From assembly GCA_030432595.1 (NCBI GenBank), contig JAUIGU010000006.1, positions 62,001 through 126,000 of the forward strand: 64,000 bases of DNA, in the 5' to 3' direction. The notes beneath the pieces were generated by a model. It saw only the letters and a list, made by a program, of their open reading frames with translations. It was not told where the DNA came from and ran no database searches. This document shows positions 5,249-24,788 of the stretch, piece after piece (the stretch's first letter is position 1; every line of letters begins with the position of its first letter). Source of the DNA: Phycisphaerae bacterium (GTDB lineage: Bacteria; Planctomycetota; Phycisphaerae; Phycisphaerales; Phycisphaeraceae). A program made the translations under genes and the position numbers.

Positions 5249-5290
5249 TTGACGTGGGTTTGGTGGTCGGCTACTTTGTAAGCGCTTTCA
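5249..5290 (+). promoter_or_regulatory. Promoter with overlapping LacI-type operator
   Basis: A sigma-70-like promoter is readable: TTGACG at 5249-5254, a 17-bp spacer, and TACTTT at 5272-5277. The 14-bp LacI-family operator TGTAAGCGCTTTCA at 5277-5290 begins at the last base of the -10 box, a position suited to repression. The downstream gene is the PEP-CTERM gene at 5407. The same operator type recurs at 6475, 10101 and 57321. Confidence 0.7.
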
Positions 5291-5406
5291 TTTGGCGGCC
5301 GAGTTCTGGTTTCACGGCTCGCCTCGTTTCATGCCGGTTCGTGTGGCCACGTTTCATCCCGCCCACGGAGCCGTTCGCAACTTCCCCTTTTTGGAGGACT
5401 TTCGAT

Positions 5407-6434: not shown

Positions 6435-6488
6435 TTGACAGCAAACGGGGCGACAGTAGAGTGAAGACGGTGAATGAAAGCGGTTACA
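6435..6488 (+). promoter_or_regulatory. lacI-family gene promoter with autoregulatory operator
   Basis: TTGACA at 6435-6440, a 16-bp spacer and TAGAGT at 6457-6462 form a good promoter. The operator TGAAAGCGGTTACA at 6475-6488 lies about 12 bp after the -10 box and two bases before the ATG at 6491, so the regulator probably represses itself. Between the 5' PEP-CTERM terminator and this promoter (about 6240-6430) I see no gene. Confidence 0.7.
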
Positions 6489-6490
6489 AC

Positions 6491-7586: not shown

Positions 7587-8786
7587 ATGAGAGCACCCGC
7601 CCGTGTTCGTACGGTGTTCCCGCCGCTGACCGGTGTCGCCGCCGTCCTGCTCGCCGGCCCCGCGCTGGCCGACATCACCACGATCGATGCGTTGGAGTTT
7701 GAGCTGCGCGAGTTGTGGAACCAGTACCCCAACAGCACGCTGACGGTCAACAACACGCCCGAGGGTTCACTGACCGGTACGCTCGCCATCGGCACGGACG
7801 TGCCCGGCGAGTTCCTGCGGATCGAAGACAACCCGCTCGGTCAGTTCGTGAGCCACGACGGGGTGGACCTCTTCCGGGCCAACTCGCACCGGGCGTGGTT
7901 CGCCGACAACGGCGGCGCTGACCGGCACGAATTCGACTTCCAAGCCGGGTTCGACGTGAGCGTGGACGTCCAACTCAACGCGACGGTCGCGACGCCGCGC
8001 CTCGAAGCGGGGTTCTTCTTCCGGCACGGCACGGGCGCCGACTCGCAGTTCATCGTCAAGACCTTCAACGACTTCCCCGAAGTCGGGGACTCGAGCCTCG
8101 GCGAGATCGCGGCGTTCGGCGGCCCCGCGCCCAAAGCGAGCAACCTCAAGACCGTCCAGGGCCCGCCCGGCTTGGAATGGGAAGGGCTCGAATACAACGC
8201 CGGCGAGACCGCGACCCTGCGTATGCAGTACCTGCCGCCGGTCCTCGACGAAAACACCGGCGCCGTCATCGAGCCGGCCACCATGCAGTACTGGTACAAC
8301 GGCGTCACCGCCTACGACGAGCCCGAGCCCTTCGGCGACACCGGCCTCCAGTTCCTCGCGCCCGGCACCACCTTCGCGCTCAAAGTGCAGACGCAGTCCA
8401 CCGTTCCGCGTGGCACGCCCGACACCGTCACCGACCCGCTCTACATCTTCAGCAACCTCGTGATCCGCGACCCGCTGGCCGGCGCGGACATCATCGGCGA
8501 CTACAACAACTCGGGCCAGGTCGAGCAGGCCGACCTGGACTTCGTGCTCCAGAACTGGGGCGACACCGACGTCTCCGACGTGACGGCCTGGGTCAACTTC
8601 GCGGGCCTGCCGGGTGGCAACATCGGCGGGCAGGTCGAGCAGACCGAACTGGACCTCGTGCTTTCCAACTGGGGCGACACCGCTGCGCCCGACTTCTCAG
8701 CGAGTGCGGTGCCGGAACCGGGCGCCGCGGCGGTCCTGGCGTCGGCCGTTTGGGGTCTGAACATCTCCCGGCGTCGCCGCGGATGA
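7587..8786 (+). CDS. Exported PEP-CTERM protein with VEQ-type dockerin-like repeats (paralogue 1)
   Basis: A 399-residue secreted protein. Signal peptide at residues 1-27 (LTGVAAVLLAGPALA). A beta-rich domain of about 270 residues follows, unrecognised but shared with the next gene (patterns HRAWFADNGGADRHEFDF and EAGFFFRHG). Near residues 305 and 349 are two EF-hand-like repeats, GDYNNSGQVEQADLDFVLQN and GQVEQTELDLVLSNWGD, spaced like the paired loops of dockerins. The C-terminus VPEPGAAAVLASAVWGL plus SRRRRG is a PEP-CTERM signal. GGAG lies nine bases upstream of ATG 7587. It follows lacI by 64 bp and precedes its paralogue by 64 bp. Confidence 0.85.
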   Translation: MRAPARVRTVFPPLTGVAAVLLAGPALADITTIDALEFELRELWNQYPNSTLTVNNTPEGSLTGTLAIGTDVPGEFLRIEDNPLGQFVSHDGVDLFRANSHRAWFADNGGADRHEFDFQAGFDVSVDVQLNATVATPRLEAGFFFRHGTGADSQFIVKTFNDFPEVGDSSLGEIAAFGGPAPKASNLKTVQGPPGLEWEGLEYNAGETATLRMQYLPPVLDENTGAVIEPATMQYWYNGVTAYDEPEPFGDTGLQFLAPGTTFALKVQTQSTVPRGTPDTVTDPLYIFSNLVIRDPLAGADIIGDYNNSGQVEQADLDFVLQNWGDTDVSDVTAWVNFAGLPGGNIGGQVEQTELDLVLSNWGDTAAPDFSASAVPEPGAAAVLASAVWGLNISRRRRG

Positions 8787-8850
8787 AGACCGGCCGCCGT
8801 CTGCGCGGGCGTGTGTCGCATTGTCCTGAACGCCATCTGGAATCCGCATC

Positions 8851-10047
8851 ATGTTGAGCATCAAGTCCACCACAAAACGATTCGTGCCCGCCACGCTGGC
8901 CGCGCTTAGCGCGCTGTTCTGTACCGTCTGCGTCGGCCCGGCCCTCGCCGTCGTCACCGACATTAACGGGCTGATCGTGCAGCGCGACACCGAAGAGAAC
9001 GACCCCGGCGGCACCAACACCAGCGCGTACCGCCAGTCGAACCTGCTCATCAACGGCGCGTCGCTGCCGGGCGTCCCGCCGACCGAAACGATCGTCGTCA
9101 ACAACCTCGCCGCGCCCTTCACCGTGTTCGAGGACAGCTACGACAACGAGCCGGCCCTGCCCGGGTTTTCCGCCAATCGCACCAACGCCTGGTTCACCGA
9201 CGACGGCACCGACCGCTACGAACTGCTCAACGCGCAGCCGTTCGAGATGTGGGTGACGGTGAACCTCGACGCGAGCCTCTACACCCGTGACAACCGCAAA
9301 GAGGCAGGCTTCCGCTTCCAGCGCCCCAACGACCACGCGGCCAACAGCCTGTTCATCGTCACCGTGGACGACGCGGCCGGCGGGCAGGTCGCCGCTATCG
9401 GCCCCAGCGGCATCTTCGTCACGACCCAGTCGTTCGACGGCCTCGACCCCGTCAACGGCGTCTACGTCCCGGGCACCGACGCGCGACTCGGGTTCCGGTA
9501 CACCCCGCCCGGCGTCAACGTCATCACTGACCCCGCGCACTACGAGTTCATCTTCGACGCCAACGCCGACGGCGTAGACATGGTCACCTACTCCACGACG
9601 CCCAACAACTTCGGCGGCTACCTCGACGGGACGACCTTCGGCTTGTACACCCAGAACCACGTCGCCGACGGCAACCCCGACATCTTCGGCGACGAGACCA
9701 CCTTCGCCAACGAGTTCATCGACGCGACGTTCACGGACCTGGTCTTCATCGATCCGCTGACCGCCATCGCCGGCGACTACAACGCGTCCGGCCAAGTGGA
9801 GCAAGGCGACCTGGACCTCGTCCTCCAGAACTGGGGCGTCGTAACCGACGCCAACAACATCCCCCTCGGCTGGCTCAACGACCTGCCCGAGGGCCAGATC
9901 GAGCAGGCCGAACTCGACGGCGTGCTGAGCAACTGGGGGGCGACTGCGGCACCCGACTTTTCCGGGGCGTTGGTGCCCGAGCCCGCGATGCCAGCGGCGC
10001 TGGCCCTGTGGCCCCTGCTGAGCGGCCGGGCACGGGCCCGCCACTAA
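8851..10047 (+). CDS. Exported PEP-CTERM protein with VEQ-type dockerin-like repeats (paralogue 2)
   Basis: A 398-residue tandem paralogue of the gene before it, with the same order: signal peptide (ATLAALSALFCTVCVGPALA), beta-rich domain (shared pattern TNAWFTDDGTDRYEL, then EAGFRFQRPNDHAANSLFIV), two dockerin-like loops near residues 308 and 349 (GDYNASGQVEQGDLDLVLQN and GQIEQAELDGVLSNWG), and C-terminal VPEPAMPAALALWPL with basic RARARH. The hydrophobic segment is shorter than in typical PEP-CTERM signals, so membrane processing is less certain. A strong terminator follows immediately. Function unknown; it may bind polysaccharide at the cell surface. Start at ATG 8851; no strong ribosome binding site. 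Confidence 0.83.
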   Translation: MLSIKSTTKRFVPATLAALSALFCTVCVGPALAVVTDINGLIVQRDTEENDPGGTNTSAYRQSNLLINGASLPGVPPTETIVVNNLAAPFTVFEDSYDNEPALPGFSANRTNAWFTDDGTDRYELLNAQPFEMWVTVNLDASLYTRDNRKEAGFRFQRPNDHAANSLFIVTVDDAAGGQVAAIGPSGIFVTTQSFDGLDPVNGVYVPGTDARLGFRYTPPGVNVITDPAHYEFIFDANADGVDMVTYSTTPNNFGGYLDGTTFGLYTQNHVADGNPDIFGDETTFANEFIDATFTDLVFIDPLTAIAGDYNASGQVEQGDLDLVLQNWGVVTDANNIPLGWLNDLPEGQIEQAELDGVLSNWGATAAPDFSGALVPEPAMPAALALWPLLSGRARARH

Positions 10048-10055
10048 CCCCTACA

Positions 10056-10101
10056 GGCGGAGTGTGCTCGGGGGGGGCACACTCCGCCTTGTATTATTTT
10101 T
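10056..10101 (+). terminator. Strong rho-independent terminator
   Basis: A perfect 12-bp stem GGCGGAGTGTGC (10056-10067) with GCACACTCCGCC (10077-10088) and a G-rich loop is followed by TTGTATTATTTTT (10089-10101). It ends the dockerin-like paralogue operon. Its T-tract doubles as the -35 region of the next promoter. Confidence 0.9.
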
Positions 10102-10116
10102 GAAACCGCTTACAAT
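10089..10116 (+). promoter_or_regulatory. Promoter and LacI-type operator for the pseudopilin-like gene
   Basis: TTGTAT (10089-10094), a 16-bp spacer and TACAAT (10111-10116) form a promoter. The operator TGAAACCGCTTACA at 10101-10114 covers the spacer end and most of the -10 box. The sequence is one base change from the lacI operator at 6475 read on the opposite strand. Confidence 0.68.
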
Positions 10117-10146
10117 ACAGCCGGCCATCTCTCAGGAGCCTGCACC

Positions 10147-10995
10147 ATGACCCGCCGACCGCAACACCCACGCGTCCCGATCCGCGCCGGCTTCACGCTC
10201 ATCGAACTGCTGGTCGTGATCTCCATCATCGCCCTGCTCATCGGCATCCTGCTACCAGCCTTGGGTGCGGCGCGCAACGCCGCGCGGCAATCCATGTGCC
10301 TCCAGCACCTCCGCCAGATCGCCAACGGCACGCAGTTGTACGCCCACGACTACGACGGCTACATGCCCTTCTCGATCACCAAAGACTTCCAGATGCGCCA
10401 GATCGAGTTCCTCGTCGGCGGGTTCTCGCAGTATTCGGGCGGGTACATCTCCAGCTTCGACGTGTTCCTCTGCCCCAACGCCGATGGCCAGGGCGGCAGC
10501 GGTCAGCAGTGGAGCGAAAACACCGGCTCGGGCACCGACCTCCTCGGCAACGCCCAGGGACGCTTCGAGTCGAAGTACCAGACGATTTCGACCCCGTCTC
10601 ATCAATTCCCCAACAACGTCGAGATCTGGGACGGCGACTCGCACTTCACCGATTACAAGTGGCAGGACCACCGCGGTCCGACCTCCTCTGCCGACGGCAT
10701 CCTCGACCGCAACCTCGATCAACTCCCCCAGCACACCTGGACCGTGATCGGCCTTGACCTGGACTGGGGCAAAGCGCCTTCATCGCCCGGAGCCGACGAC
10801 CGCGACCTGGACCTCCGCCGCCACGGCGCGGGCGAGAACCTCGCGTTCCTAGACGGCCACGCGAACTACATGGACCGGGCCGACTACCACGAGCCCGCCA
10901 CCGCGCTCGAAGACTCGTACGGCAACCGCAAGTGGAACCGCTGGGGCGACCCCGACCCCGACCCCGTCGGCGGCAGCGACATCCCGGTCAACTGA
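10147..10995 (+). CDS. Pseudopilin-like protein with prepilin cleavage site and H-X9-DG-type C-terminus
   Basis: A 282-residue protein of the large planctomycete family with a type IV pilin-like N-terminus. Residues 16-40 read [19 protein letters not shown], with prepilin peptidase cleavage expected after Gly and the conserved Glu at position +5. A soluble domain follows, with [20 protein letters not shown] and ending in [14 protein letters not shown], the H-X9-DG-type motif. AGGAG lies eight bases before ATG 10147. It stands alone behind its own LacI-operator promoter, next to two dockerin-like PEP-CTERM genes. Role unknown; a type II secretion-like minor pseudopilin or cell-surface filament component is possible. 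Confidence 0.85.
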
Positions 10996-11110
10996 CCGAG
11001 CGAATCAAACCACGCGGTAAAGTACGTGTCGTCATGTGGTTGTCCCCGCGGGTGTGCTTGAGTTGTTCTTCCCCCGTGGTCGTTTTGCCGTCATCTTTGA
11101 GGTCGCCGTC

Positions 11111-13135
11111 TTGACTCCGACACCTTCGGGCCGGTCTGGTTCTTCCCGCATCATTCCTCGTAGCGTCGGGCGTCTACGTCAGACCTGCGGGCTCGCACGC
11201 TTCGTACTTGCGCTGGCGGTCGGGCTTTGCCTCGCGTTCGGCGTCAGCTGCGCAAAGCAGGCACCCGTCCCGGTCGGGCTGAACACCGACGACGCACTGC
11301 TCGAAGAGATCCAGAAGCGGTGTTTCGACTTCTTCTGGGAGCAGGCCGACCCCGACACGGGCCTGATCGTGGACCGCGCCCACGCGGACGGCGGGAACCG
11401 CCCGCGCATGGGCAGCATCGCCGCGACGGGGTTCGGGCTGACCGCGGTGGCCATCGCCGACGAGCGCGGCTGGGTCGAGCACGGCTTGGCCTACGAGCGC
11501 GTGCTCACGACGCTGCGCTACCTGTGGGACGACCTGCCGAACAAGCACGGCTGGTACTACCACTTCATCGACATCCGTGACGGCGACCGACTCTGGAAGT
11601 CCGAAGTCTCGTCCATCGACACCGCGCTGCTCATGTGCGGCGTGCTTACCGTCCGGCAGGCGTACCCCGACACCGAGGTCGCCGAGCTGGCGACGAAGAT
11701 CTACGAACGCATCGACTTTCCGTGGATGACCAACGGCGAGGCGACGCTGAGCATGGGCTGGAAGCCCGAACCCAACAAGGTCAACAAAAACGGCTTCCTC
11801 CCGCAGCACTGGAACGAGTATTCCGAGCACCTCGTGCTCTCGCTGCTGGCGATGGGCTCCACGACGCACCCGCTGCCGCCCGAGCACTGGCACGGCTGGA
11901 CGCGCAGCGAGGTCTACGACTACAAGGGCAAGCGCTTCTTCGGCTCGACCGCCCTGTTCACACACCAGTACAGCCACGCGTACGTTGACCTGCGGGGAAA
12001 GCGTGACGAATACGCGGACTACTGGCACAACTCCGTGCTCGCCACGATCGCCCAGCAGGAGATGTGCGCGCAGCAGCTCAGCCGGCACTTCCCGCACTAC
12101 AACGCCAAGGTCTGGGGCATCTCCGCGTCGGACTTCGTGGACGGCTACACCGGCTGGGGCGGGCCGCCCGCGACGACCAACATCGACGGCACCGTCGTGC
12201 CCTACGCCGTCGCCGGCGCGCTGCCGTTCACGCCCGAGCTGGCGATGACGACGCTGCGCCACCTCGCGACCGAGCACGCCGACGAGTTCTGGACGCGCTA
12301 CGGCCCGTCGTCGGCGTTCAACCCCGCGATCGGCTGGAAGGGAGACGAGGTGCTCGGCATCGACGCGGGCATCACCTTCGTCATGATCGAGAACCACCGC
12401 ACCGGCCGGCCGTGGGAGCTGTTCATGGCCAACCCCGAGATCCGGAACGCCATGAACCACGCGGGCTTCCGCCCGCTCACCGCGGAAGAAAACGACCCGA
12501 CCCGCGCTTCCTCGCTGTTCAAGCTCGGGCACAAGCTGCCCATCCCTGCCGAGGCGCTGACCGACGCGCGGTTCGGGACCCACGACGCGGACGTCCTCCC
12601 CCTCGACGCCGGCTGGGACAGCGCCGACTGGCAAGAGCTCCGCATCGACAACGCGCTGGAGTGGGGCCAGCCCACCAACCGCCACCAACTCACCGGTCGG
12701 TTCGCGTTCATGTGGGACGACGACGCCCTGCACCTGCGCGTCCACGTCAACGACGACGAGATCGTCAACGACGAAGACGCCGACGAACTCCACCAGGGCG
12801 ACTCCGTTGAAATCTTCCTCGACCCCGACCACGACGGCATGGTCTGGCGCGACACCGACGACTTCCGCATCGGCGTCGCCCCCACGGGCCAGCGCTACGA
12901 GTGGTTCGGGCAGCGCGTCGGCTTCGGCTCGGTGATCCTCGTCAACGACGACGGCTACGAGCTGCGCTGCACCTTCCCGTGGAAGTTCCTGGGCCACCGC
13001 CCCCGCGCCGGCCAGACCCTCGGCGGCACCGTCGCGCTCAAGAGCGTGGACGAAGTCGATGGCCTCATCCGCCTCAACTGGGCGTTCCAGGGCAAGAAGC
13101 CGCCGATCTTCTTGGGCAACCTGCACCTGCGCTGA
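11111..13135 (+). CDS. Putative glucoamylase-fold (PF10091/GH144-like) enzyme with C-terminal CBM9-like domain
   Basis: A 674-residue exported enzyme. The N-terminus has basic residues, then FVLALAVGLCLAFGVSC, a signal sequence with an imperfect lipobox (GVSC). Residues about 55-480 match the putative glucoamylase domain: RCFDFFWEQADPDTGLIVDR, SIAATGFGLTAVAIADERGW, HWNEYSEHLVLSLLAMGS, ALFTHQYSHAYVDLRG, SDFVDGYTGWGGPP and a C-terminal IENHRTGRPWELFMANPEIR. Relatives include GH144 endo-beta-1,2-glucanases. The last ~190 residues look like a CBM9-type beta-sandwich (MWDDDALHLRVHVND, GDSVEIFLDPDHDG, FPWKFLG). TTG 11111 is chosen because GAGG sits eight bases upstream and gives a normal signal peptide; GTG 11036 is in frame. 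Substrate is inference. Confidence 0.8.
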   Translation: MTPTPSGRSGSSRIIPRSVGRLRQTCGLARFVLALAVGLCLAFGVSCAKQAPVPVGLNTDDALLEEIQKRCFDFFWEQADPDTGLIVDRAHADGGNRPRMGSIAATGFGLTAVAIADERGWVEHGLAYERVLTTLRYLWDDLPNKHGWYYHFIDIRDGDRLWKSEVSSIDTALLMCGVLTVRQAYPDTEVAELATKIYERIDFPWMTNGEATLSMGWKPEPNKVNKNGFLPQHWNEYSEHLVLSLLAMGSTTHPLPPEHWHGWTRSEVYDYKGKRFFGSTALFTHQYSHAYVDLRGKRDEYADYWHNSVLATIAQQEMCAQQLSRHFPHYNAKVWGISASDFVDGYTGWGGPPATTNIDGTVVPYAVAGALPFTPELAMTTLRHLATEHADEFWTRYGPSSAFNPAIGWKGDEVLGIDAGITFVMIENHRTGRPWELFMANPEIRNAMNHAGFRPLTAEENDPTRASSLFKLGHKLPIPAEALTDARFGTHDADVLPLDAGWDSADWQELRIDNALEWGQPTNRHQLTGRFAFMWDDDALHLRVHVNDDEIVNDEDADELHQGDSVEIFLDPDHDGMVWRDTDDFRIGVAPTGQRYEWFGQRVGFGSVILVNDDGYELRCTFPWKFLGHRPRAGQTLGGTVALKSVDEVDGLIRLNWAFQGKKPPIFLGNLHLR

Positions 13136-13186
13136 CCCGCATCCGCCGAACAAGCGGGCCGCGTGTTGCGTTTTCTGGAGAGAACA

Positions 13187-14803
13187 ATGTCCGTTTCGCT
13201 TCGATGCTCACGCGCCGCTTGCGGTTGGTTGTGTGCGGTGTTCCTGCTCTTGGCTTGCGGTTCAGCCCGGCCGGCCGAGCTCCACGTCCCGCAAGGCGTG
13301 ACGACGAACGCGCTGCCCCATCACATCGAGCTCACGTGGCAACGCCCGACCGACACCGAAGTCGAGTCTTACGTCGTCGAGCGCGCTTACGCCGAGGCCG
13401 GCCCCTTCGAAGCCGTCGGCCAGGTCGAGCGCGGCCTCACCGCGTTCACCGACTACCGCGGCGACGACGACCGCGCTGTGTTCTACCGCGTCAGACAACT
13501 CGGCGAACACAGCACCATGTCGCCGCCCTCCGCCGTCGTCTCGAGCAAGCCCGCGCCGATGGACGACGACGCCCTGCTCGACGCCATCCAACGCGCCTGC
13601 TTCCGCTACTTCTGGGACTTCGGCCACCCCGTCAGCGGCCTCGCCCGCGCGGGCACCAAGGAAGACCGCGACATCTGCGTCTCCGGCGGCACCGGCTTCG
13701 GCATGATTACCATCGTCGTCGGCACCGAGCGCGGCTTCGTCTCCCGCGAAGACGCCGCCCAGCGCCTGCTCAAGATGGTCACCTTCCTCGGCGAGGACGC
13801 CGAACGCTTCCACGGCGCGTGGTCCCACCGCCTCAACGGCCGCACCGGCAGCACCATCGAGTTCTTCAACCCCAACGACAACGGCGGCGACCTCCCCGAG
13901 ACCGCCTTCCTCATCCAGGGCATGCTCACCGCCCGCGCCTACTTCGACCAGGACAACGCCGTCGAAAACGAGCTGCGCGAACGCATCACCCGGCTCTGGC
14001 ACGAGGTCGAGTGGGGCTGGTACCTCCGCTACCCCGAGGGCAAGGTGCTGTACTGGCACTGGTCTCCCGACCAGGCGTGGGTCAAGAACCACCCGCTGCA
14101 CGGCTACAACGAGTGCATGATCACCTACCTCCTGGGCATCGCCTCGCCCACCCACTCCATCCCCGACGAGAGCTACCGCGAAGGCTGGATGGGCAAGCCG
14201 CAATACTTCAACGAACAGACCCACTACGGCCTCACCCAAAAGATCGGCCGCTCCATGGCCGGCCCGCTGTTCCTCACCCAATACTCCTTCCTCGGCCTCG
14301 ACCCCCGCGCCATCACCGACGACACCGGCAACTACCACGAACACAACCGCGTCTTCTCGCTGATGCACCACCGCTACGCGATCGACAACCCCAAACACCA
14401 CGCCGGCTACAACGAAAAATGCTGGGGCCTCACCTCGAGCCAGAACCCCAACAAGGGCTACCTCGGCCACGCGCCGCTCACCGACAAAGACGACGGCACG
14501 ATCGCCCCCACCGCCGCGCTCAGCGCCTTCGCCTACACACCCGAAGAATCCCTCGCCGCCGCCAAACACTTCTACTTCGACCGCGGACGCGAACTCTGGG
14601 GCCCGTTCGGCTTCTACGACGCCTTTAACCCCGGGCAGAACTGGGTCTCGCCGCACGTCCTCGCCATCGACGTCGGCCCCATCGCCCCCATGATCGAAAA
14701 CCACCGCACCGCCCTGTGCTGGCGCCTCTTCATGTCCAACCCCGAAATCGTGCCCATGCTCGAACGCCTCGGCATCTACACCGAACCCACCGACCAACCC
14801 TGA
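13187..14803 (+). CDS. Putative glucoamylase-fold (PF10091/GH144-like) lipoprotein with FN3-like domain
   Basis: A 538-residue lipoprotein. The signal peptide ends in the lipobox LLAC (WLCAVFLLLAC). Residues about 35-110 form a fibronectin type III-like module (HIELTWQRPTDTEVESYVVE through VFYRVRQLG). The remainder is the PF10091 domain (RACFRYFWDFGHPVSGLARA, SGGTGFGMITIVVGTERGF, GYNECMITYLLGIASPTHSI, FLTQYSFLGLDPRAITD, GYNEKCWGLTSSQNPNKGYL, IENHRTALCWRLFMSNPEI). ATG 13187 has GGAGA five bases upstream. It follows the previous glucoamylase-fold gene by 51 bp, so the two are likely cotranscribed and act on the same glucan outside or at the outer membrane. A beta-1,2-glucan substrate is plausible but unproven. 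Confidence 0.85.
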   Translation: MSVSLRCSRAACGWLCAVFLLLACGSARPAELHVPQGVTTNALPHHIELTWQRPTDTEVESYVVERAYAEAGPFEAVGQVERGLTAFTDYRGDDDRAVFYRVRQLGEHSTMSPPSAVVSSKPAPMDDDALLDAIQRACFRYFWDFGHPVSGLARAGTKEDRDICVSGGTGFGMITIVVGTERGFVSREDAAQRLLKMVTFLGEDAERFHGAWSHRLNGRTGSTIEFFNPNDNGGDLPETAFLIQGMLTARAYFDQDNAVENELRERITRLWHEVEWGWYLRYPEGKVLYWHWSPDQAWVKNHPLHGYNECMITYLLGIASPTHSIPDESYREGWMGKPQYFNEQTHYGLTQKIGRSMAGPLFLTQYSFLGLDPRAITDDTGNYHEHNRVFSLMHHRYAIDNPKHHAGYNEKCWGLTSSQNPNKGYLGHAPLTDKDDGTIAPTAALSAFAYTPEESLAAAKHFYFDRGRELWGPFGFYDAFNPGQNWVSPHVLAIDVGPIAPMIENHRTALCWRLFMSNPEIVPMLERLGIYTEPTDQP

Positions 14804-15274
14804 CCACGATCAACGAATGACTCCCTCACGCGACGATGTGTCCGCAAACGAATTCATGTTGACTTTGTATTTCGCACCTATGCGGGCATCGCCTGCGCGG
14901 CGAGCGGCAGGGGTTACACCCCTGCACCCCAACCTCTTCCGCCACCGCAATCCGCAGAATCGCAGAATCGCCGCACACCGAAACACCTTGCCATATCCCG
15001 GAACCCCACCGGACGCCGAATTGATAAGGACTCGCACGCGCGACCTCTCAGTCTCGGGGGGTGTCGGGGGCCACGCCCCTGACCGCCCGCCGCGCAGGCG
15101 CACACATCCCCACGTTTCACTCCGCACGTTGAACTTAGCCTTCACGCTGGCAAACGCCTCCCCCCATCAGACGAAGCGTTCTCCACCCGCTCGCCACCGC
15201 GCCGTCGACGCAAACCACAAGGAGTTGAGGTTTTGCCGGCAGCATGCCAATCAAAGGGGATATAGCTTCTACGT
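14804..15274. repeat. 471-bp intergenic stretch with two copies of a GC-rich palindromic repeat
   Basis: No gene is seen here. Two copies of the same repeat family lie at 14891-14930 (GCCTGCGCGGCGAGCGGCAG followed by a CAGGGG/CCCCTG palindrome) and, inverted, at 15055-15100. A third copy is at 24876-24917. The stretch marks the border between the polysaccharide genes and the accessory block. Confidence 0.6.
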
Positions 15275-17520: not shown

Positions 17521-17659
17521 GGTGCATTCCTCGAACGTGGCAATCCCCGGGTTCAAAGCGCCCTGCGCCGCTGTCACGGCGCGGGCACGGTTTCAACTCA
17601 TCGCCATCCGTAGGCCGCGGAGCGGCCCTCCGGAAGCGGAGCGGAATCCCTTCCGGGGG

Positions 17660-18343
17660 TTAGGCCGCTTCCGACAGCCCCTGGTACCCGATCCGCGTTT
17701 GCTGTGGCGCGCACGCCGGGCCCGGCTGGTCGGTGGGGTTGACCCACAGGGCCGTGACCCACACCTTCGTGCCCGGGGCCACGCTGTCCTCGAAGACCAC
17801 CTGCGGGTTGCTGCGTGTCGTTCCGCCGCGGAACTGCCACGCGGTCAGCTCGGCCGGCGGGTCGTCACCGACGTGCGTGTACAGCCACGCCCCGCGCGCC
17901 CCGTCGGGCTTGCGCTTCTTGCCCTCGGTGTCCAGCACCTCCAGTTCAAGCAATCGGCCGAACACACCGGCGACGCGCAGCACCGGCATCTCCTCGGGCG
18001 GGCCGATCGGGGTGGGCTGGCGGTCACGCGTCGGGATGCCCAGCGTGTCGCGCTTGTCGTCCGTCATGCCCGACCAGTTCTGCAGCGTCTGCACCAGCGG
18101 GCGGATGATGTCGATCATCGCCTGCTTCTTGGCGTTCTTGTCCGCGATGGTCGGCTTGGTCTTGGTCGCCGGGTTGGTGGTGACCGCCAGCGCGGCCTTG
18201 AAGGCGTTGAACGCCGTGCCGAACGGCGCGATCGACTCGATGGTCTGACCGTAGGTCGCCGGGTTGGCCTCGAGGTGGTCGAACAGGTTCTGCGCGAACG
18301 CGAGCAGTTCGGCCTCCCGGGCCGGCAGATACGTACTTGGCAT
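17660..18343 (-). CDS. Hypothetical protein
   Basis: A 227-residue protein I do not recognise by name. The N-terminal half is helical (YLPAREAELLAFAQNLFDHL, NAKKQAMIDIIRPLVQTLQN); the C-terminal half is beta-rich with EMPVLRVAGVFGRLLELEVL and KVWVTALWVNPTDQPGPACA, resembling a fibronectin-like module. There is no signal peptide. ATG 18343 is preceded by AAAGGAG at good spacing. The C-terminus ends at a GC-rich palindromic intergenic segment before the GNAT-like gene, which may attenuate read-through. Proteins of this shape occur as orphan genes in planctomycetes and verrucomicrobia; no function is inferred. Confidence 0.7.
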   Translation of the reverse strand: MPSTYLPAREAELLAFAQNLFDHLEANPATYGQTIESIAPFGTAFNAFKAALAVTTNPATKTKPTIADKNAKKQAMIDIIRPLVQTLQNWSGMTDDKRDTLGIPTRDRQPTPIGPPEEMPVLRVAGVFGRLLELEVLDTEGKKRKPDGARGAWLYTHVGDDPPAELTAWQFRGGTTRSNPQVVFEDSVAPGTKVWVTALWVNPTDQPGPACAPQQTRIGYQGLSEAA

Positions 18344-18579
18344 GGCCAAGCTCCTTTCGATGGCGGCCAGAGTCGCCGCTGCGTGAAGCCCCCAACGAAT
18401 CACAACGGGGCCAAAGACGCCGGAACCCGCGACACCTCGAACGGGCGCGCCGTTTCGCCGGCCCCACCGACATCGCCCGCACCACCCGCCGACTTGACCC
18501 GCCCCGCACAAAACCGACCTCAGCGCCAACCACGAAGCAGCGGCATCAATTCTCTCGGACGTAACAACGTTTAATCAAT

Positions 18580-18840
18580 TTATGATTGGGGCACATACAG
18601 CCGCAGGCTTTTCCACCCGCGACCGGATTTTCGGCTGTGGCTCCCAACCGGCTCGCGTTGAGCAATTTCACCAAAGCTCGTCCTGAATTCCTGACCACAA
18701 CAGGAGGCACGATAATCCTGAACCCGCAAAGTTTCGCCACAATGGGGACACGGCACCCCCGCCCCGGCTCGATAGGGATGCTTGAGCATTGTCTGTCCGG
18801 ACATGTTGTCGTAGCAATACCAAGCCCAATCCGGAAACAT
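18580..18840 (-). CDS. Small zinc-ribbon-like protein (candidate)
   Basis: An 86-residue ORF with a convincing metal-site pattern, CPHCGETLRVQDYRASCCGQ, i.e. two CxxC-like pairs 14 residues apart, followed by a basic C-terminus (SHSRKSGRGWKSLRLY). This pattern is unlikely by chance, but no ribosome binding site is evident and the gene is divergent from the ApeA-like gene with only a 71-bp gap. It may be a small regulator or a partner of the neighbouring defence gene. The call rests on the cysteine pattern alone. Confidence 0.5.
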   Translation of the reverse strand: MFPDWAWYCYDNMSGQTMLKHPYRAGAGVPCPHCGETLRVQDYRASCCGQEFRTSFGEIAQREPVGSHSRKSGRGWKSLRLYVPQS

Positions 18841-18911
18841 TGTCGGAATCCTTTACCTGAAATCGGACGAACGTACTTACAAAGAATCAATTCTAGGTAT
18901 CAGGTCAACCT

Positions 18912-20435
18912 ATGAGCAAGCTGCCCCAAGGTGAAGAAATCGATGCGTTCAAGAAAGACGGTGTCTTCTGGGATGAATCAAGTGCAGTAGATGGTGTAAA
19001 TCCCGAGAAGTTTATGGGTCGGATTGAGTACGACCGACAGCACGGGATCTCGCTCCATGTCGCGAAGGAACTCACCCGACAAGAGGCGTGGGGCATGCGG
19101 GGCAAACTTTCCGGTGATGACGACAAGCCTTTAAATCTTCAGGGCCACATCGACACGTTTGGCCCCATCACGCTTTTTTCTGGATTCCTCAGCAGTCGGC
19201 AAAGCGATGCCAACGGATTGACCAAGTACAGGTACTACTTCAACCGTGCCCTGATCGGTGGTCATGCCGACAGCCCGACCGAAGAAACATTTAGCCGTCT
19301 CGATGCGATCGTGTCCGGACTGGGCTACTGGCTCAACCAATACGCGATCCAGATCACCGGGCACGACGAACAAAGCGTAACGCTTCGCGCCTGGACGCCC
19401 GTTTCCGAATACGCAGACCTCGCGCCGGGCGTGGTTCTCGAAATCGGGTGGGCGGTTTCCTACTCAGTCCCGTACACGTCTGAGAAAACCGCGAGTCTGC
19501 ATAGCCAACCAAGGCTGTCATTGCTCTTTTCGGACCCGAAACCGCTCGCCGAGGTAAGGAAACACTTTGGCTCTGCCCTCGCGCTGCTAACGGTACTTGC
19601 GGGTGCAGAGTTCGACGTACGCACGATCAATCTCACCGCGACCCAAGCGGATGCGGACGAACCGGGCGAAGGTCCGAGTGCCGGCCCCGACCACCAATCC
19701 AAACGTCCCGCAACACTCATTCTCAGATATCTGGACGGCAAGCAGACCCCGCCGCGCCGCCCGTTGGAGGACGCACACCGGGCGCTGATCCCGTTTGGCG
19801 AGGTCGAAGACTGGGCCGGTCTCGTAAAACGATGGGACGGGCTGCGCCAGAAACTGGGAACCGAAGTGCTCGACGTTCTCGGCGGCCGCTACCACCTCGA
19901 ACCGTACGCTGAAACATCCTTCCTGTTGGCGGCAAGCGCCTTGGAGCGACTGCACGGCAGACTGTTTGCCGCGGACGGGTTAGAAGACCATAGACTGACC
20001 ACCGACCAAATACGGCGGTGCACCGACACGTTGGGGCCTGAGTTTGAGGAAAGTGTCGAAACGTACCTGCAACAATTCGGCCGCCCGGGGTTCCGCCGCC
20101 GCCTCGCGGCGTTGCTGGAACGCGCGAGCGATCTGGCTGATTGGTGCATCGGCGACGAGTCCATCCAGAAGCAGTTTGTCAACACCTGCACCCACTGGCG
20201 CAACGAGCTGGCACATTGTCTTGCGCCGAAGCCGGCTTATCGGAGGCGCACCGGCTGGGATTTCATGCGGACCAATCTGCGCCTGTTTGCCCTGTTGGAC
20301 TTTTTCGTGCTCCGCGAACTCGGCCTCCCGCGGGAAAAGGTCGTGCGGAGAATCCGTGAAGCGTCCCGTCACGGTTCGTGGATAGAAGCCCCCTGGCAGG
20401 CGTGCAAAGACGCCTTAGACGACGAGGCGCAGTAG
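18912..20435 (+). CDS. apeA: ApeA-like HEPN-domain anti-phage protein
   Basis: A 507-residue soluble protein. The N-terminal ~300 residues resemble the ApeA N-terminal domain: DGVFWDESSAVDG, GRIEYDRQHGISLHV, LQGHIDTFGPITLFSG, and the typical YYFNRALIGGHAD followed by SRLDAIVSGLGYWLNQ. The C-terminal ~170 residues are helical and carry the HEPN ribonuclease motif RNELAH (R430, H435; Rx4H). ApeA is a known single-gene abortive-infection defence (Gao et al. 2020), thought to cut RNA on phage infection. The location between orphan genes and repeats and the lower GC fit a mobile defence gene. Family match is by pattern; other HEPN proteins with this layout exist. Start at ATG 18912. Confidence 0.65.
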   Translation: MSKLPQGEEIDAFKKDGVFWDESSAVDGVNPEKFMGRIEYDRQHGISLHVAKELTRQEAWGMRGKLSGDDDKPLNLQGHIDTFGPITLFSGFLSSRQSDANGLTKYRYYFNRALIGGHADSPTEETFSRLDAIVSGLGYWLNQYAIQITGHDEQSVTLRAWTPVSEYADLAPGVVLEIGWAVSYSVPYTSEKTASLHSQPRLSLLFSDPKPLAEVRKHFGSALALLTVLAGAEFDVRTINLTATQADADEPGEGPSAGPDHQSKRPATLILRYLDGKQTPPRRPLEDAHRALIPFGEVEDWAGLVKRWDGLRQKLGTEVLDVLGGRYHLEPYAETSFLLAASALERLHGRLFAADGLEDHRLTTDQIRRCTDTLGPEFEESVETYLQQFGRPGFRRRLAALLERASDLADWCIGDESIQKQFVNTCTHWRNELAHCLAPKPAYRRRTGWDFMRTNLRLFALLDFFVLRELGLPREKVVRRIREASRHGSWIEAPWQACKDALDDEAQ

Positions 20436-21045
20436 AACAGGCCGCATTGAAGCGCAAGCAGATATCATCGTTTATGACCTCGGCCGAAAGGTCTTTGGAT
20501 TCCCAGACGACCATGCGCCGCCGGTCGGCACGGCCGCAACACTCCATGATTTGCGCGACCCGGCCCCTTGATTCTTGGTCATGACCCAGGGTGATAAAGC
20601 CGTGACCCCGGGAACGTGGTTTTGAACTCAGGGTTTGCGGAGCATCCGCCCGGGGTGAGCACCCGCGGCCCGTGGACCCCGCGGCGACTTCCGGGGGTGC
20701 CGCGGCGGCTTCCGGGGGTGCCGTGGCGTCTTCCGGGGGTGCTGCGGCGATTTTTGGGGCTCCACGGGTCCGGACCCGGGGCACCGTGTCTTTTTCCCTC
20801 GGTCCTGCGGGTTGGATGGGGGGTGACACGACGGTTTCGATGAGCGGTGCGGTCCCGTCCGGGGTTTTATGCTTGGTTTCAGGGAGGGACGGGGCGGCGG
20901 CGCGCGTCGGGAGGCGTTCCGTCGCGGCCGAATCGACCGCGGGTGGGGCGCGACGCGCGGGTCCGCGCTGCGTAATCACAAGAATTTCGGGTGAACCCCC
21001 ATAAATCGCTTGGTTTTATGGGGGAAGCCCGGTAATCTGGGAGGG
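20436..21045. other. 610-bp region without a clear gene; possible minus-strand coding remnant
   Basis: Between the ApeA-like and pseudopilin genes no complete gene is convincing. On the minus strand, about 20450-20640 reads through in a plausible protein-like way (GHGFITLGHDQESRGRVAQI then MVVWESKDLSAEVINDDICL) but without a sensible start, the ORF continuing into low-complexity Pro/Ala repeats upstream and into the 3' end of apeA downstream. It may be a gene remnant. The right half holds a 21-bp tandem repeat. Confidence 0.35.
20681..20764 (+). repeat. 21-bp tandem repeat, about four units
   Basis: Units start at 20681, 20702, 20723 and 20744; the first is GCGGCGACTTCCGGGGGTGC plus C, the next two differ at a few bases and the fourth is degenerate. 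Translated, it gives a seven-residue Ala/Ser/Gly repeat, but no start or domain supports coding. Confidence 0.8.
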
Positions 21046-22071
21046 ATGGGATCGATCAATCCCGTGTTCCGTGGGTCTTCACTCCGGACCGCCCGCCGGG
21101 CAGCTTTTGGCAGGTCACGCGGCAGGCGCGGTTTCACCCGCCTCGACATGATCGCACTCGTTGCGATGTTGGGCGTGGCGTTGGGGTGTATCCTGCCGGC
21201 TTTAGCACAGACACGGAATGATGAGAGAATCTTGAAGTGTCAACAGAACCTTAGGAAAATCGCTACTTCGGCAAATAGTTATGCATTGGACCACAAGGGG
21301 AAATTCTACAGACATTGGTTTGGCGAATCATCCCCACCATGGCCTAAAGAAACCAATTTCGTCTCTGCTTGGTGGGACGAAAATCAATGCGGAGCGTATC
21401 TTGATGATTTGATAACTATTTACAATCGACGCCCATCCTTACAACCCGATGATAGATTCGCAGAATACCGTCAAGAGGGCCTTGGCGCCGGCATTATGTT
21501 TTGCCCCGGCAGTGATGAAGAACTACGCTCATATAATATGAATTTTTGGGCATCAGGGATTGATCCACCCAAGACTTTACCTGATTGGCCAGCACATTAT
21601 GACAGAATTACGGATGCCCCTCGCTATCCCGGATCGTTCTTCGACACCGATTCTGTTATTGACCCTGAAGTGCGATTGTTGTTTGGGGAAGCACTCGCTC
21701 TAGCTAGCGCAACCGCAAAAGAAATTCCCAGAAATATGTGGGCAACCGAAGGATATTTAGGAAACGAGCACTTGCCCGGGGAACGGTTTGCTGGCGTAAA
21801 TAATCTTGCAGTCCTCGGTGTTAACAACGGTGAGTGGCGTTGGGGCAGACACCAAAACTGGCCAAGCCGTTTTGATTACGGTCGCCATGGGGGCTTTCGG
21901 GGGCTTTCGCCAGAGAGAGGTAACGCGAACTTTGCTTTTGTCGATGGACACGTCGATATGTTCACTGCTACTGATCTATATGATCACGACACCCGAAGAT
22001 CAACGTTTCGCATTACGTGGTCTAACGTGGACCGCGAACTCGAAGAACAATTCCGAGGAGAATCACGATGA
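21046..22071 (+). CDS. Pseudopilin-like protein with atypical N-terminal helix and H-X9-DG-type C-terminus
   Basis: A 341-residue member of the pseudopilin-like family. After a basic leader the helix reads RGFTRLDMIALVAMLGVALG; cleavage after Gly would leave Asp where pilins have Glu at +5, and the helix is weaker than usual. The soluble part has the usual CQQNLRKIATSANSYALDHK and ends NANFAFVDGHVDMF, the DG motif. Base composition drops sharply toward AT after about 21.2 kb. Start ATG 21046 is preferred; a TTG at 21010 is in frame. The stop TGA overlaps the ATG of the protease gene (ATGA), so the two are translationally coupled. It may help display or export the protease. Confidence 0.75.
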   Translation: MGSINPVFRGSSLRTARRAAFGRSRGRRGFTRLDMIALVAMLGVALGCILPALAQTRNDERILKCQQNLRKIATSANSYALDHKGKFYRHWFGESSPPWPKETNFVSAWWDENQCGAYLDDLITIYNRRPSLQPDDRFAEYRQEGLGAGIMFCPGSDEELRSYNMNFWASGIDPPKTLPDWPAHYDRITDAPRYPGSFFDTDSVIDPEVRLLFGEALALASATAKEIPRNMWATEGYLGNEHLPGERFAGVNNLAVLGVNNGEWRWGRHQNWPSRFDYGRHGGFRGLSPERGNANFAFVDGHVDMFTATDLYDHDTRRSTFRITWSNVDRELEEQFRGESR

Positions 22072-24788
22072 CACGGCTAATCAATGCTCTCATTATTCTA
22101 TTTGCCATCGCGTGTTCACCTGACAGCGCATTCGCCGCTTCGGTGTACGTCGATCCTGCTGGAGCCGGTGACATCGAAGACTTTAATGCGGCAGCATCTA
22201 CGAACTTAATTCTTGAAGCAATTGGCTTAGACCCAAGCGGGGTAGTCAAAATCACGATTACAGATGCTGTAACAGGACAAGAAGGGACAGATATTGGCGG
22301 TGTATTTGCTGGCGACTATGTCGGCAGCGGCGTGCTTCTATCGGGCGGAAAATTCATCTTGACGGCAGCGCATAATTTTGACACTCCCGGCGGTATCAAC
22401 GACCCAGACACAGCAAAATATTCTGTCCGCATACAGAACCAAGCTGGAGTTGTTTCCCCAATCGCTCCTGTAAATGTTGGCGGAGATTTAACTGGGTTAA
22501 ACCCTCCACCGCCGACTATCACAGTTCACCCCAAATTTTTAGAAGCGGACGATGCTATACAAGGCAGTCAGAATGAAGACAGCTATTCCGTGTATGCTGG
22601 ATACGATCTCGCACTTATCGAGTTGGCGAATCCGGTCCAAGGCAACTACGCCACTTACGACGTATTTCAAGGACAATTGGTCGGACGAACGGTTTACGGT
22701 ATTGGATACGGTCCTGCTGGGACGCACAACAATCCACAATCAACCAATCAAAATCAATTCAATCGCTATTTCTTTACCAACATTATTGACGGCACATACC
22801 CGCCGGCGTTTGAGTTCTTTGATCGCGATATTACACGGCATGAAACCATGGTTGTGTATGACTTCGACGCTCCAGACCAAGGGAATCACAGTTTTGATTT
22901 TTTGGGAGACCCCACCCGATCAATTGCTGAAGGCATTGCGGTACCTGGAGATTCGGGCGGCCCGTTGATGGTTCCAGAAGCGAACGGCAGTTATTCTATT
23001 GGGGCAATATCAAGTTGGACGAGTCGTACACCTCAAGATCTAGACAATGACACCGGCACACCGGGCGAAATCGGGATCGCGGTAAATCTTAGTGCATTGA
23101 ACGGTGATTTTGACAACCAACAAACGCCTGAGGATGAGTCGCAACGCACGATTGCCGACTGGATCATTGAAGAAGCCGGCCTCAATCAGGCTCGAGCAAA
23201 TAATCCTCAAGGTGGTAGCTTCAGCCAAGCATCGACTTGGGCATTCGGGAATACGCCCCAATCGGGAGCATCCATAGCGATTAATGTTAACGCCGGCGGT
23301 CCGATTTCTTTTACTCCTGCAACGGGAAGCAACAGTTATAGTCGCATCAGTGTCGGAGGTGGGGAGGGGCAAAAAACTGTTGAATTTTCGCAGGGGCAAT
23401 CCATTACCCTCACTGACAATTTGGGCGTCACTACCAATGGCGGGCTGCGTATTGAAGATGGAACTTTGCAGGCGGACGAAATCTTCGTTGATTCCCTCAC
23501 ACCCGTCTTTTCTGGGCCAACACCGGAGCGTGGCGAACTCAGGATCACCGATATCAATGGCCCCGGCGCGGCCGACATCATCGCCAATAAGTTAACGGTC
23601 GGGCCGGGCGGCGACCTGATTCACGACTGGTCAAATCCAAATACGGGTGAGATTAATGTTGCGGAGGTCGTTGTAGAGAGTGGTGGACGAGCGTTTTTCC
23701 AGTGGGACACACTTGCCATCGACAATGTCACAAACCGCGGTCTGGTTTCGCTTGGTGAGTTCGATTTTGGCAATGCGTTGGTCGTTGACAGTTACAGCGC
23801 CACGAACGATTCAGCGACGGCTTTCTGGACGATCACCTCGGGAGGAACCCCGATTAGTGACGTGATTGTCGCGAACACGTCAGCGTCGGTTGGCGGGGAG
23901 GCGTTTGTTGCGACCAACAGCGCGGATTTTGTGGGACTTGGCGACACTTACACTTTGATTAGTTCTTCTTCTGTCAGCGGTGTCTTCACATCCGTTGATG
24001 CCGCAGTGCTTGGAAGCTCTACAGGTACGACAAATATAGGTATTGATTCCTCAGGCGTCCGCAAGTCGCTTGCGGTCACATACGCGTCAACGGGTGTCAA
24101 GGCGATGGTCGCACTTACAGGCGATGCCAGCCTGAACGGGCAGGTGGAGCAAGCCGATCTGGATGCGGTGCTTCAATATTGGGGGCTAAACGCCGAGGTT
24201 GACCCGGTCTGGTGGATGTATGGTGAATTGAGCGGTAATGGAACCGTCGAGCAGGCCGACCTGGACGCGGTGCTTCAGAACTGGGGCAACTTGACGGCGG
24301 CTTATAGCCAGCCGCCATCTTTAAAGCGTTCATTGAACGATTTAGGTATGGAGCTTTCGGTCAATGAAGTGACCGGCGAGGTGACCTTGACGGGCGAGGG
24401 CGAGGTGTTGGCGGTGATCGTGCAGTCCAACGACGGGCTCGCCGAGAAGGGCGACGACCCCGTGGTGACGTGGTACGACGACGAGCGAGTTTTGATGGAG
24501 AGCGCACGGACGGCGATCTATGTGGACGTGGCCGGCGTAGACGCTGCAGACGGCCTGTCGCTGGGCAGGCTGTTTGACTCGGGCGCGGACCTGTCGAGCC
24601 TGCGTTTCAGCTATGCGTTGGCGGGACAGGGATTGACGCCGGTGGGGGCTTCAGCGCCCTTGAGTGACACGGTGACGGGCCGGAGCTTCGTCTGGGGCAC
24701 GGGCGGGATCGAGGTCGTGCCCGAGCCGGCGGGGGTGGTGGCACTAGCTGCCTTGGGGCTGCTGGCGCGGCGGAGACGGGCGGCCTGA
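22068..24788 (+). CDS. Exported trypsin-like serine protease with dockerin-like repeats and PEP-CTERM
   Basis: A 906-residue secreted protease. Signal peptide residues 1-24 (LIILFAIACSPDSAFA). Residues about 80-370 form an S1 peptidase domain with catalytic His102 (LTAAHNFD), Asp180 (YDLALIEL) and Ser296 (PGDSGGPL). A beta-helical or adhesin-like middle follows (residues ~390-670, many SxTVxNxG-type stretches). Two dockerin-like loops lie near residues 685 and 721 (GQVEQADLDAVLQYWG, GTVEQADLDAVLQNWG). The C-terminus VPEPAGVVALAALGLLARR plus RRAA is a PEP-CTERM signal. CGAGGAG lies upstream of ATG 22068, which overlaps the preceding stop. The 5' two thirds is AT-richer than the 3' third, hinting at a mosaic gene. 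Confidence 0.88.
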   Translation: MTRLINALIILFAIACSPDSAFAASVYVDPAGAGDIEDFNAAASTNLILEAIGLDPSGVVKITITDAVTGQEGTDIGGVFAGDYVGSGVLLSGGKFILTAAHNFDTPGGINDPDTAKYSVRIQNQAGVVSPIAPVNVGGDLTGLNPPPPTITVHPKFLEADDAIQGSQNEDSYSVYAGYDLALIELANPVQGNYATYDVFQGQLVGRTVYGIGYGPAGTHNNPQSTNQNQFNRYFFTNIIDGTYPPAFEFFDRDITRHETMVVYDFDAPDQGNHSFDFLGDPTRSIAEGIAVPGDSGGPLMVPEANGSYSIGAISSWTSRTPQDLDNDTGTPGEIGIAVNLSALNGDFDNQQTPEDESQRTIADWIIEEAGLNQARANNPQGGSFSQASTWAFGNTPQSGASIAINVNAGGPISFTPATGSNSYSRISVGGGEGQKTVEFSQGQSITLTDNLGVTTNGGLRIEDGTLQADEIFVDSLTPVFSGPTPERGELRITDINGPGAADIIANKLTVGPGGDLIHDWSNPNTGEINVAEVVVESGGRAFFQWDTLAIDNVTNRGLVSLGEFDFGNALVVDSYSATNDSATAFWTITSGGTPISDVIVANTSASVGGEAFVATNSADFVGLGDTYTLISSSSVSGVFTSVDAAVLGSSTGTTNIGIDSSGVRKSLAVTYASTGVKAMVALTGDASLNGQVEQADLDAVLQYWGLNAEVDPVWWMYGELSGNGTVEQADLDAVLQNWGNLTAAYSQPPSLKRSLNDLGMELSVNEVTGEVTLTGEGEVLAVIVQSNDGLAEKGDDPVVTWYDDERVLMESARTAIYVDVAGVDAADGLSLGRLFDSGADLSSLRFSYALAGQGLTPVGASAPLSDTVTGRSFVWGTGGIEVVPEPAGVVALAALGLLARRRRAA

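Follow-up and report, generated by a model that had tools for sequence, protein, structure and literature searches.

Pseudopilin genes beside dockerin-like PEP-CTERM genes in a Phycisphaerae genome: candidate polymer-utilisation cassettes

A 64-kb stretch of DNA from a Phycisphaerae bacterium (assembly GCA_030432595.1, contig JAUIGU010000006.1, positions 62,001 to 126,000; here called the window) carries two loci at which pseudopilin genes adjoin genes for PEP-CTERM proteins with dockerin-like VEQ repeats. Pseudopilins of one class, which we call class H, stand beside such genes in a non-random arrangement and order; whole cassettes of this kind are kept between two species and parts of them between genera, and depolymerases lie beside a number of the pilins. 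These are probably, though we say so with reserve, polymer-utilisation cassettes with a dedicated class-H pseudopilin as a recurring member, alongside PEP-CTERM surface proteins, secreted or displayed depolymerases and, in some, a local LacI-family repressor. Within them the pilin possibly captures the polymer, which is the mechanism that we judge most likely.

Adjacency of class-H pilins and dockerin-like genes

The window is one part of a genome of 4.39 Mb in 73 contigs, in which the prepilin motif model TIGR02532 has 79 matches. Class H was defined by the N-terminal motif and a length of more than 200 aa; its 54 members have a near-invariant N-terminal helix and a variable head, and the remaining 25 pilins resemble the ordinary type II secretion system/type IV pilus (T2SS/T4P) type. 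In a count by gene order the 79 matches became 52 class-H and 27 other tagged genes, the latter including C17:312047, a neighbour tagged through its position, and C20:101305, a class-H pilin truncated at a contig end. The set of 54 adds two genes to the 52, namely C20:101305 and C13:75938 (a pilin overlooked in gene calling), and does not include the divergent window pilin at 21010. Several class-H pilins (L060, L036, L037, L085 and L077) end in a glycine run followed by phenylalanine (GGGGGF or similar).

An alignment of the window's three VEQ repeat regions, used as query, gave at least 150 dockerin-like matches in the genome (150 of 211 candidates scored), some of them two in one protein, and literal VEQ was present in 52 of the 59 dockerin-match genes in the regions read. 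VEQ-type dockerin arrays occur on contigs C7, C17 and C42, C7 alone having 11 matches, without a class-H pilin.

Expected frequencies were obtained from 2,000 shuffles, in which the pilins were placed over the 28 pilin-bearing contigs (2.87 of the 4.39 Mb, holding 101 of the 150 dockerin matches). A VEQ repeat lay 189-235 nt upstream of the prepilin motif on the same strand for 10 of the 54 class-H pilins (shuffle mean 0.27, maximum 3; test range 100-400 nt), and a VEQ match was found within 5 kb for 30 of 54 (mean 12.6, maximum 24). The ordinary T2SS/T4P-type pilins gave two of 25 within 5 kb and no tight upstream pair among the 25. Of the 52 class-H pilins, 28 had an immediate same-strand dockerin/PEP-CTERM neighbour; of the 27 genes in the other group none did, and of the remaining genes in these regions 36 of 490. 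In this genome the co-occurrence within 5 kb, which the earlier note had proposed to count, exceeds the shuffled expectation and is not a by-product of copy number.

The arrangement was replicated in a congener, the metagenome-assembled genome of Phycisphaera sp. (JANQPR01, isolate IP29b_bin.17; probably identical with the same-genus genome G011), with loci selected by the dockerin alone. A strict VEQ scan of named genomes confirmed 125 matches, and the best 75 loci came without exception from this congener. At 12 of the 75, on 12 different contigs, a class-H pilin match followed 126-262 nt downstream on the same strand, with a thirteenth at 490 nt; a class-H pilin lay within 5 kb at 35 of the 75, and 30 of these 35 were on the same strand.

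The window loci and their cassettes

In the window, pseudopilin and VEQ dockerin-like PEP-CTERM genes adjoin as the earlier note had placed them, all five genes being found there. At locus 1 they stand within a longer run:
5407..6117, + strand: PEP-CTERM protein without dockerin repeats, 236 aa (open reading frame 5254-6117); TIGR02595 20.6 bits, cut-off 16
6461..7522, + strand: LacI-family regulator; PF00356 E 2e-15, PF13377 E 6.2e-41
7587..8786, + strand: dockerin-like/PEP-CTERM protein 1; unassigned ectodomain, VEQ repeats at 8520 and 8634, VPEP tail
8851..10047, + strand: dockerin-like/PEP-CTERM protein 2, a paralogue of protein 1; VEQ repeats at 9796 and 9898
10055..10089, + strand: terminator-like hairpin in the gap between dockerin gene 2 and the pilin; 15-pair stem, then a T-rich run
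10147..10995, + strand: class-H pseudopilin; TIGR02532 26.7 bits, cut-off 16.3; H-X9-DG at 10822
11036..13135, + strand: glycoamylase-type enzyme with a CBM9-like domain (CBM, carbohydrate-binding module); PF10091 E 5.6e-62, PF06452 E 1.3e-15; start possibly as late as 11369
13163..14803, + strand: second glycoamylase-type enzyme; PF10091 E 8e-74

Several of the window domains were recognised by motif and not by curated cut-off. The pilins lie below the DUF1559 (PF07596) cut-off of 23.3 bits (18.0 for 10147, 17.4 for the other), which 16 of the 19 own-genome matches listed pass. For the H-X9-DG-CTERM model TIGR04294 the pilin at 21010 reaches 13.3 of 19 bits, and that at 10147 is unreported at E<=0.1 despite its bare H-X9-DG motif. 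By TIGR02595 the 7587 protein scores 15.8 of 16 bits, with 8851 and 22068 unreported, and Pfam Dockerin_1 (PF00404) reports none of these three proteins at E<=0.1.

The congener locus L161 repeats the order of locus 1 in full: a PEP-CTERM protein, LacI, two dockerin/PEP-CTERM proteins, the pilin, the glycoamylase-CBM9 enzyme and a second glycoamylase-type enzyme. A paralogous cassette in the window's own genome (L046, on contig C13) carries LacI, one related dockerin/PEP-CTERM protein, a related pilin and a glycoamylase-CBM9 enzyme, as well as a 734-aa protein of no Pfam family with a VEQ/PEP-CTERM tail, and L201 is its counterpart in the congener. Relatives of protein 1 are present in L161, L046 and L201; protein 2, aligned with protein 1 and four relatives, showed 33-51% identity. 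At all four loci found with a locus 1-type pilin head, a related dockerin/PEP-CTERM protein stands directly upstream of it. With a LacI regulator and two PF10091 enzymes, one with CBM9, locus 1 holds the regulator and carbohydrate enzymes by which a carbohydrate-active enzyme (CAZyme) gene cluster is recognised, as does L161. None of the ten window genes scanned is a transporter, the other locus 1 genes lying outside that scan.

Three exact copies of the palindrome TGNAANCGNTTNCA, which we take to be a LacI/CcpA-type operator pattern, lie in the window:
5277..5290, + strand: operator-like palindrome, exact, 116 nt upstream of the PEP-CTERM start at 5407
6475..6488, + strand: operator-like palindrome inside the called LacI gene, at its start and before an internal ATG
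10101..10114, + strand: operator-like palindrome, 32 nt upstream of the pilin ATG

Their positions are notable. L161 has operator-like sites at 1342, before the likely start of its PEP-CTERM gene, and at 5912, before the pilin; L046 and L201 have one each, before LacI, and paired sites, spaced by 145 and 151 nt, occur at two pilins of G003, a genome of the same family and another genus. A similar hairpin and T run stands between dockerin gene and pilin in L161, as judged by eye. With such a hairpin lying between dockerin gene 2 and the pilin at locus 1, these two genes may be co-regulated rather than co-transcribed.

LacI genes accompany class-H pilins more widely. In the window's own genome 12 of 16 had a class-H pilin no more than 4 kb away (2,000 shuffles gave a mean of 2.4 and a maximum of 8). 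In three genomes of other genera, with pilins typed for a subset of those present (24 of 53 in G001, 21 of 54 in G003, 10 of 45 in G007), LacI genes were found within 5 kb of a typed pilin in nine of 12 cases in G001, four of nine in G003 and four of 10 in G007, the circular-shift means being 0.76, 0.37 and 0.20; in each of the three the highest count among 5,000 shifts was as large as that observed (9, 4 and 4), as is expected for near-zero shifts. In G003, five LacI-type genes lay in 18 pilin regions and none in 20 random regions. Pilin and LacI counts across 15 genomes of the family had a Spearman coefficient of 0.92, genome size also correlating with both (0.72 with pilins, 0.58 with LacI). 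Among 65 upstream same-strand genes, with dockerin genes left out, 13 carried Peripla_BP_3, seven the LacI helix-turn-helix, four AraC and two GntR domains.

Enzymes were sought in 30 dockerin/PEP-CTERM proteins flanking class-H pilins of the window's own genome on the same strand, 16 downstream and 14 upstream. The downstream proteins included three catalytic ones, namely a rhamnogalacturonan lyase (RGL11) with CBMs and members of glycoside hydrolase (GH) families GH53 and GH113, and one ricin-type/LamG lectin protein. Downstream of pilins in G001 and G003, nine of 20 genes, picked by hand with LacI loci preferred and not always the nearest gene, encoded GH10 (twice), GH53, GH5, GH30, GH99, GH20 and two sulfatases; two more of the 20 were for sugar-transport-type proteins. 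A control of 20 genes drawn at random from G003, each 350 aa or longer, contained three such enzymes: GH2, GH99 and a phosphodiester glycosidase.

Outside the genus, G003 has 54 class-H pilin matches and four weak VEQ matches, and an immediate same-strand PEP-CTERM neighbour was found for six of 27 pilins, against three of 185 genes in the same regions and six of 252 in 20 random regions. In G001 the corresponding counts were 10 of 22 pilins and 11 of 159 other genes. Genes in these relatives were called by a longest-ORF (open reading frame) method in G003 and a retrained codon method in G001. PEP-CTERM proteins, LacI-type regulators and depolymerases are the partners that recur from genus to genus, and the VEQ tail is the lineage-specific part. 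Pilin heads that are 49% identical, in own-genome locus C64 and in L136 of G001, each have a GH53-family gene directly downstream; the two enzymes are 23% identical, that of C64 bearing a dockerin/PEP-CTERM tail and that of L136 neither tag. Likewise, the GH30 enzyme of G003 (L095) has no tail and its own-genome relative on contig C22 has one. As these GH53 and GH30 relatives lack the tail, the comparison suggests that it was gained at the level of the genus by an older cassette consisting of a regulator, a PEP-CTERM protein, a pilin and a depolymerase. Where it is present, on some of the PEP-CTERM proteins, it possibly serves calcium-dependent attachment.

Another group of class-H pilins with related heads, mostly in tandem (L101, L106, L093, L097 and C17:159-162 kb of the window's own genome), showed no PEP-CTERM gene among the neighbours displayed. 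These pilins are possibly structural rather than bound to a cassette.

At locus 2 the pilin is coupled to a protease:
21010..22071, + strand: divergent pseudopilin; GFTRLD, with Asp at +5 and not Glu; H-X18-DG; low G+C content (GC)
22068..24788, + strand: trypsin-like protease with a repeat region, two VEQ repeats and a VPEP/PEP-CTERM-like tail; start inside the pilin stop codon (ATGA, 22068-22071)
24096..24299, + strand: VEQ dockerin-like repeat region of the protease; GC back towards the genome value

The coupling through ATGA, the VEQ loops and the tail reported in the earlier note are all present; its H-X9-DG assignment gives way to H-X18-DG, and the tail misses the PEP-CTERM cut-offs. TIGR02532 does not report the 21010 pilin at E<=0.1 and GspG gives 17.9 bits against a cut-off of 88.85. 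The class-H alignment model recovers it at E 5.7e-11, which supports a pilin-like protein but not membership of TIGR02532. The protease scores 22.2 bits over the whole protein with PF00089, above the cut-off of 20.6, no single stretch passing alone, and 19.8 bits with PF13365, under the cut-off of 27.6. What we take to be the His, Asp and GDSGG motifs were picked out by eye in its translation.

Across 21.1-24.1 kb the GC is 0.48-0.54, against 0.66 for the window. The pilin gene has a GC of 0.507 overall, with 0.63 in its first 141 nt, and its third-position GC is 0.477; third-position GC is 0.488 in the protease body, 0.721 in the dockerin repeats, 0.802 behind them and about 0.9 in six neighbouring genes. 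From this composition, pilin and protease body look to have been acquired together, with a tail that resembles native sequence. Matches to the protease (E<=1e-5) occur in six of 201 genomes of the order, this one included, at nine places, and no relative was found with it as query in the named genomes. At four places beyond the window (L224, L225, L226 and L229; three genomes, genus g7) a relative of the locus 2 pilin stands directly 5' of the protease; at the other four the readable upstream sequence of about 0.75-1.1 kb holds no pilin. Some of the protease relatives have a different dockerin-like repeat where the window protein has VEQ. The related gene at L223 (genome G004) has a stop inside the dockerin region, and L228 and L230 have their tail in a different frame; these breaks may reflect decay, assembly error or something else.

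Elsewhere in the window an ordinary T2SS/T4P-type pilin lies on the minus strand at 62807-63280, at least 6.3 kb from the nearest dockerin match. An ApeA-type gene (ApeA_NTD1, HEPN_Apea) at 18912-20435, within a smaller GC dip, is a putative anti-phage defence gene.

A polymer-utilisation model and its alternatives

Operation of such a cassette can be outlined from its parts. Polymer, when present, would make the local LacI-family repressor let go. A prepilin peptidase would cut the pilin and a shared T2SS/T4P-type platform would polymerise it; the pilin head would capture or position the polymer, PEP-CTERM partners sorted by an exosortase would bind it, and the enzymes would cut it, a glycan in locus 1 and a protein in locus 2. 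T2SSF-domain matches number 18 in the window's own genome (about two per protein) and four in G012, against 62 and 18 class-H pilin matches. The class-H pilins outnumber the platforms, and the platforms must therefore be shared, if these pilins are assembled at all. Exosortase (PF09721) has two matches in the window's own genome and two or three in each of five relatives.

A number of observations weigh against this account. A dockerin match within 5 kb is absent for 24 of the 54 class-H pilins of the window's own genome, an immediate PEP-CTERM neighbour for 21 of 27 pilins in G003, and a LacI gene within 5 kb is present for only 12 of the 54. LacI genes are missing from five of the 15 family genomes, which have 4-38 pilins, and number three in a sixth with 50 pilins. 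The three palindromes are unremarkable by number, three matches to TGNAANCGNTTNCA at one mismatch or fewer (all exact) comparing with 1.24 expected in 64 kb and being reached in 13 of 100 shuffles. Exact sites stand before three of 105 class-H pilins in the window's own genome, G001 and G003 and before five of 1,150 other genes; most cassettes would accordingly require different operators. Catalytic domains were found in three of the 16 downstream and none of the 14 upstream dockerin/PEP-CTERM proteins, and the enzyme enrichment in G001 and G003 rests on the hand-picked set. Two of the 20 genes scanned there are housekeeping genes lying near pilins, for glutamine synthetase (L101) and a tRNA synthetase (L143), so the enzyme context is not universal. 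Among pilin pairs with related heads (E<1e-10), eight of 67 had a non-LacI neighbour family in common, the figure for unrelated heads being 113 of 4,492; this is a modest excess and in part plain orthology. In structure prediction, the locus 1 pilin model has a confident helix at residues 18-68 and an uncertain head (mean pLDDT 65.6), and a Foldseek search with it against the PDB returned nothing at E<=0.001, the best hit being a type IVb pilin at E 0.58. A structural clue to the dockerin-protein ectodomain was sought with AlphaFold2 on six sequences, and the model was unusable (pLDDT 36.8).

The earlier note had read the pairing as a sign that the pilins take part in display or export of their neighbours. 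In such a scheme each dockerin/PEP-CTERM protein would be pushed through the envelope or carried on the fibre. We regard such a secretion or display role as an unlikely account of the cassettes. The spacing of 189-235 nt, seen in 10 of 80 pilins, agrees with it, as do the ATGA overlap at locus 2, a possible second overlap in L046 (where the pilin start is uncertain), the related dockerin/PEP-CTERM protein directly upstream of the locus 1-type head at four of four loci, and conservation of the pilin-protease unit. However, LacI genes take part in the association too, as do enzymes that bear neither a PEP-CTERM nor a dockerin tag; exosortases exist for sorting PEP-CTERM proteins, and G003 retains its pilins almost without VEQ matches. 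Moreover, no class-H pilin lies within 5 kb of 109 of the 150 dockerin matches, 51 of them on contigs without any, although contig ends may hide some. The link beyond chance is upheld, and a general role of the pilins for VEQ cargo is not; the pilin as general exporter of all dockerin cargo was set aside on the unpaired matches. For single pairs, locus 2 above all, an export role is possible.

Equally improbable in our estimate is passive co-residence, by which pilins and PEP-CTERM proteins would both be common in polymer-degradation loci with neither a joint substrate nor contact. LacI and enzyme genes surrounding the pilins would be expected on that account, and it accommodates the weak co-conservation of heads with neighbours and the failure of any single PEP-CTERM ectodomain family to pair with pilins (largest cluster six of 91). 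It is harder to reconcile with the tight same-strand order relative to shuffles, replicated in the congener, with operator-like sites before both the PEP-CTERM gene and the pilin at locus 1, and with a pilin and protease body of atypical composition that recur as a unit. Chance arising from the high copy number of both families, with at least 150 dockerin and 79 pilin matches in 4.39 Mb, is ruled out for this genome and the congener by the shuffles (10 tight pairs against 0.27, and 30 of 54 against 12.6), by the control pilins of T2SS/T4P type (no tight pair in 25) and by the 12 of 75 congener loci, and we give it practically no weight.

Comparison with known systems

Searches of an open-access library, which omits most subscription journals, showed no pairing of such pilins with PEP-CTERM proteins, LacI genes or dockerins, in agreement with the earlier note, which knew of no description of the link. 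The individual parts have known relatives. PEP-CTERM/exosortase systems (Haft et al. 2006, PMC1569441) share the C-terminal VPEP, hydrophobic stretch and basic end, and exosortase genes are present here; in the text available from that paper the word dockerin occurs 0 times and a PEP-CTERM-pilin pairing is unmentioned. Secreted proteins with type I dockerins, as in the cellulosome, likewise carry duplicated EF-hand-like loops close to their C-terminus, but the VEQ repeats of the window are unreported by Dockerin_1, and cohesin (PF00963) had no match in any of three genomes at E<=0.05, a divergent cohesin being possible. A cellulosome-like cohesin-dockerin assembly was rejected on that result.

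The window pilins resemble the DUF1559/SBP_bac_10 (PF07596) and H-X9-DG-CTERM (TIGR04294) families in their N-terminal stretch and DG motif, and differ in scoring under the curated cut-offs. DUF1559 copies number 68 in P. limnophila (PMC10632474) and 74 in R. baltica (PMC2754498), and the portions of these papers available to us call their function unknown or solute binding and mention no cassette context. The cassette interpretation speaks to these 68-74 paralogues per planctomycete genome.

CAZyme gene clusters have been discussed for Planctomycetota, as far as the accessible part of PMC11131199 goes. The present cassettes share with them and with the polysaccharide utilisation loci of Bacteroidota a local sugar-type regulator, possibly a binding surface protein, depolymerases and the use of one cassette per substrate; they differ in giving a pilin a recurrent place. 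Tentatively, and with less assurance than we have in the cassettes themselves, they could be the pilin-based equivalent of a Bacteroidota utilisation locus, every cassette having its own fibre subunit, with a variable head matched to one polymer, and drawing on a few shared platforms. Partners sorted by exosortase and bearing dockerin-like calcium loops would keep the fitting depolymerase at the surface. On that view the dozens of DUF1559/H-X9-DG-type pilins in each planctomycete genome would serve as an interchangeable stock of capture heads, directed at protein and glycan polymers alike.

The closest parallel in function is the 'fishing-rod' pili hypothesis of polysaccharide uptake by planctomycetes (Boedeker et al. 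2017, PMC5394234; reviewed in PMC12078418), for which the portion available to us of the former reports dextran-gold binding to pili-like fibres of the crateriform structures. Both schemes involve dedicated pilin-like proteins proposed to bind whole polysaccharides. That work concerns Planctopirus and Gemmata rather than the present lineage, and the accessible text does not attribute the fibres to any pilin gene, nor does it mention a gene cassette, a regulator or a PEP-CTERM partner. The cassette pilins are good candidates for these pili. If this is correct, specific pilin genes can be named for the fibres thought to catch polysaccharides, the adjoining enzyme would predict the polymer served by each pilin, the fishing-rod idea would become testable cassette by cassette, and a pilin-centred design would join the known bacterial ways of organising polymer degradation.

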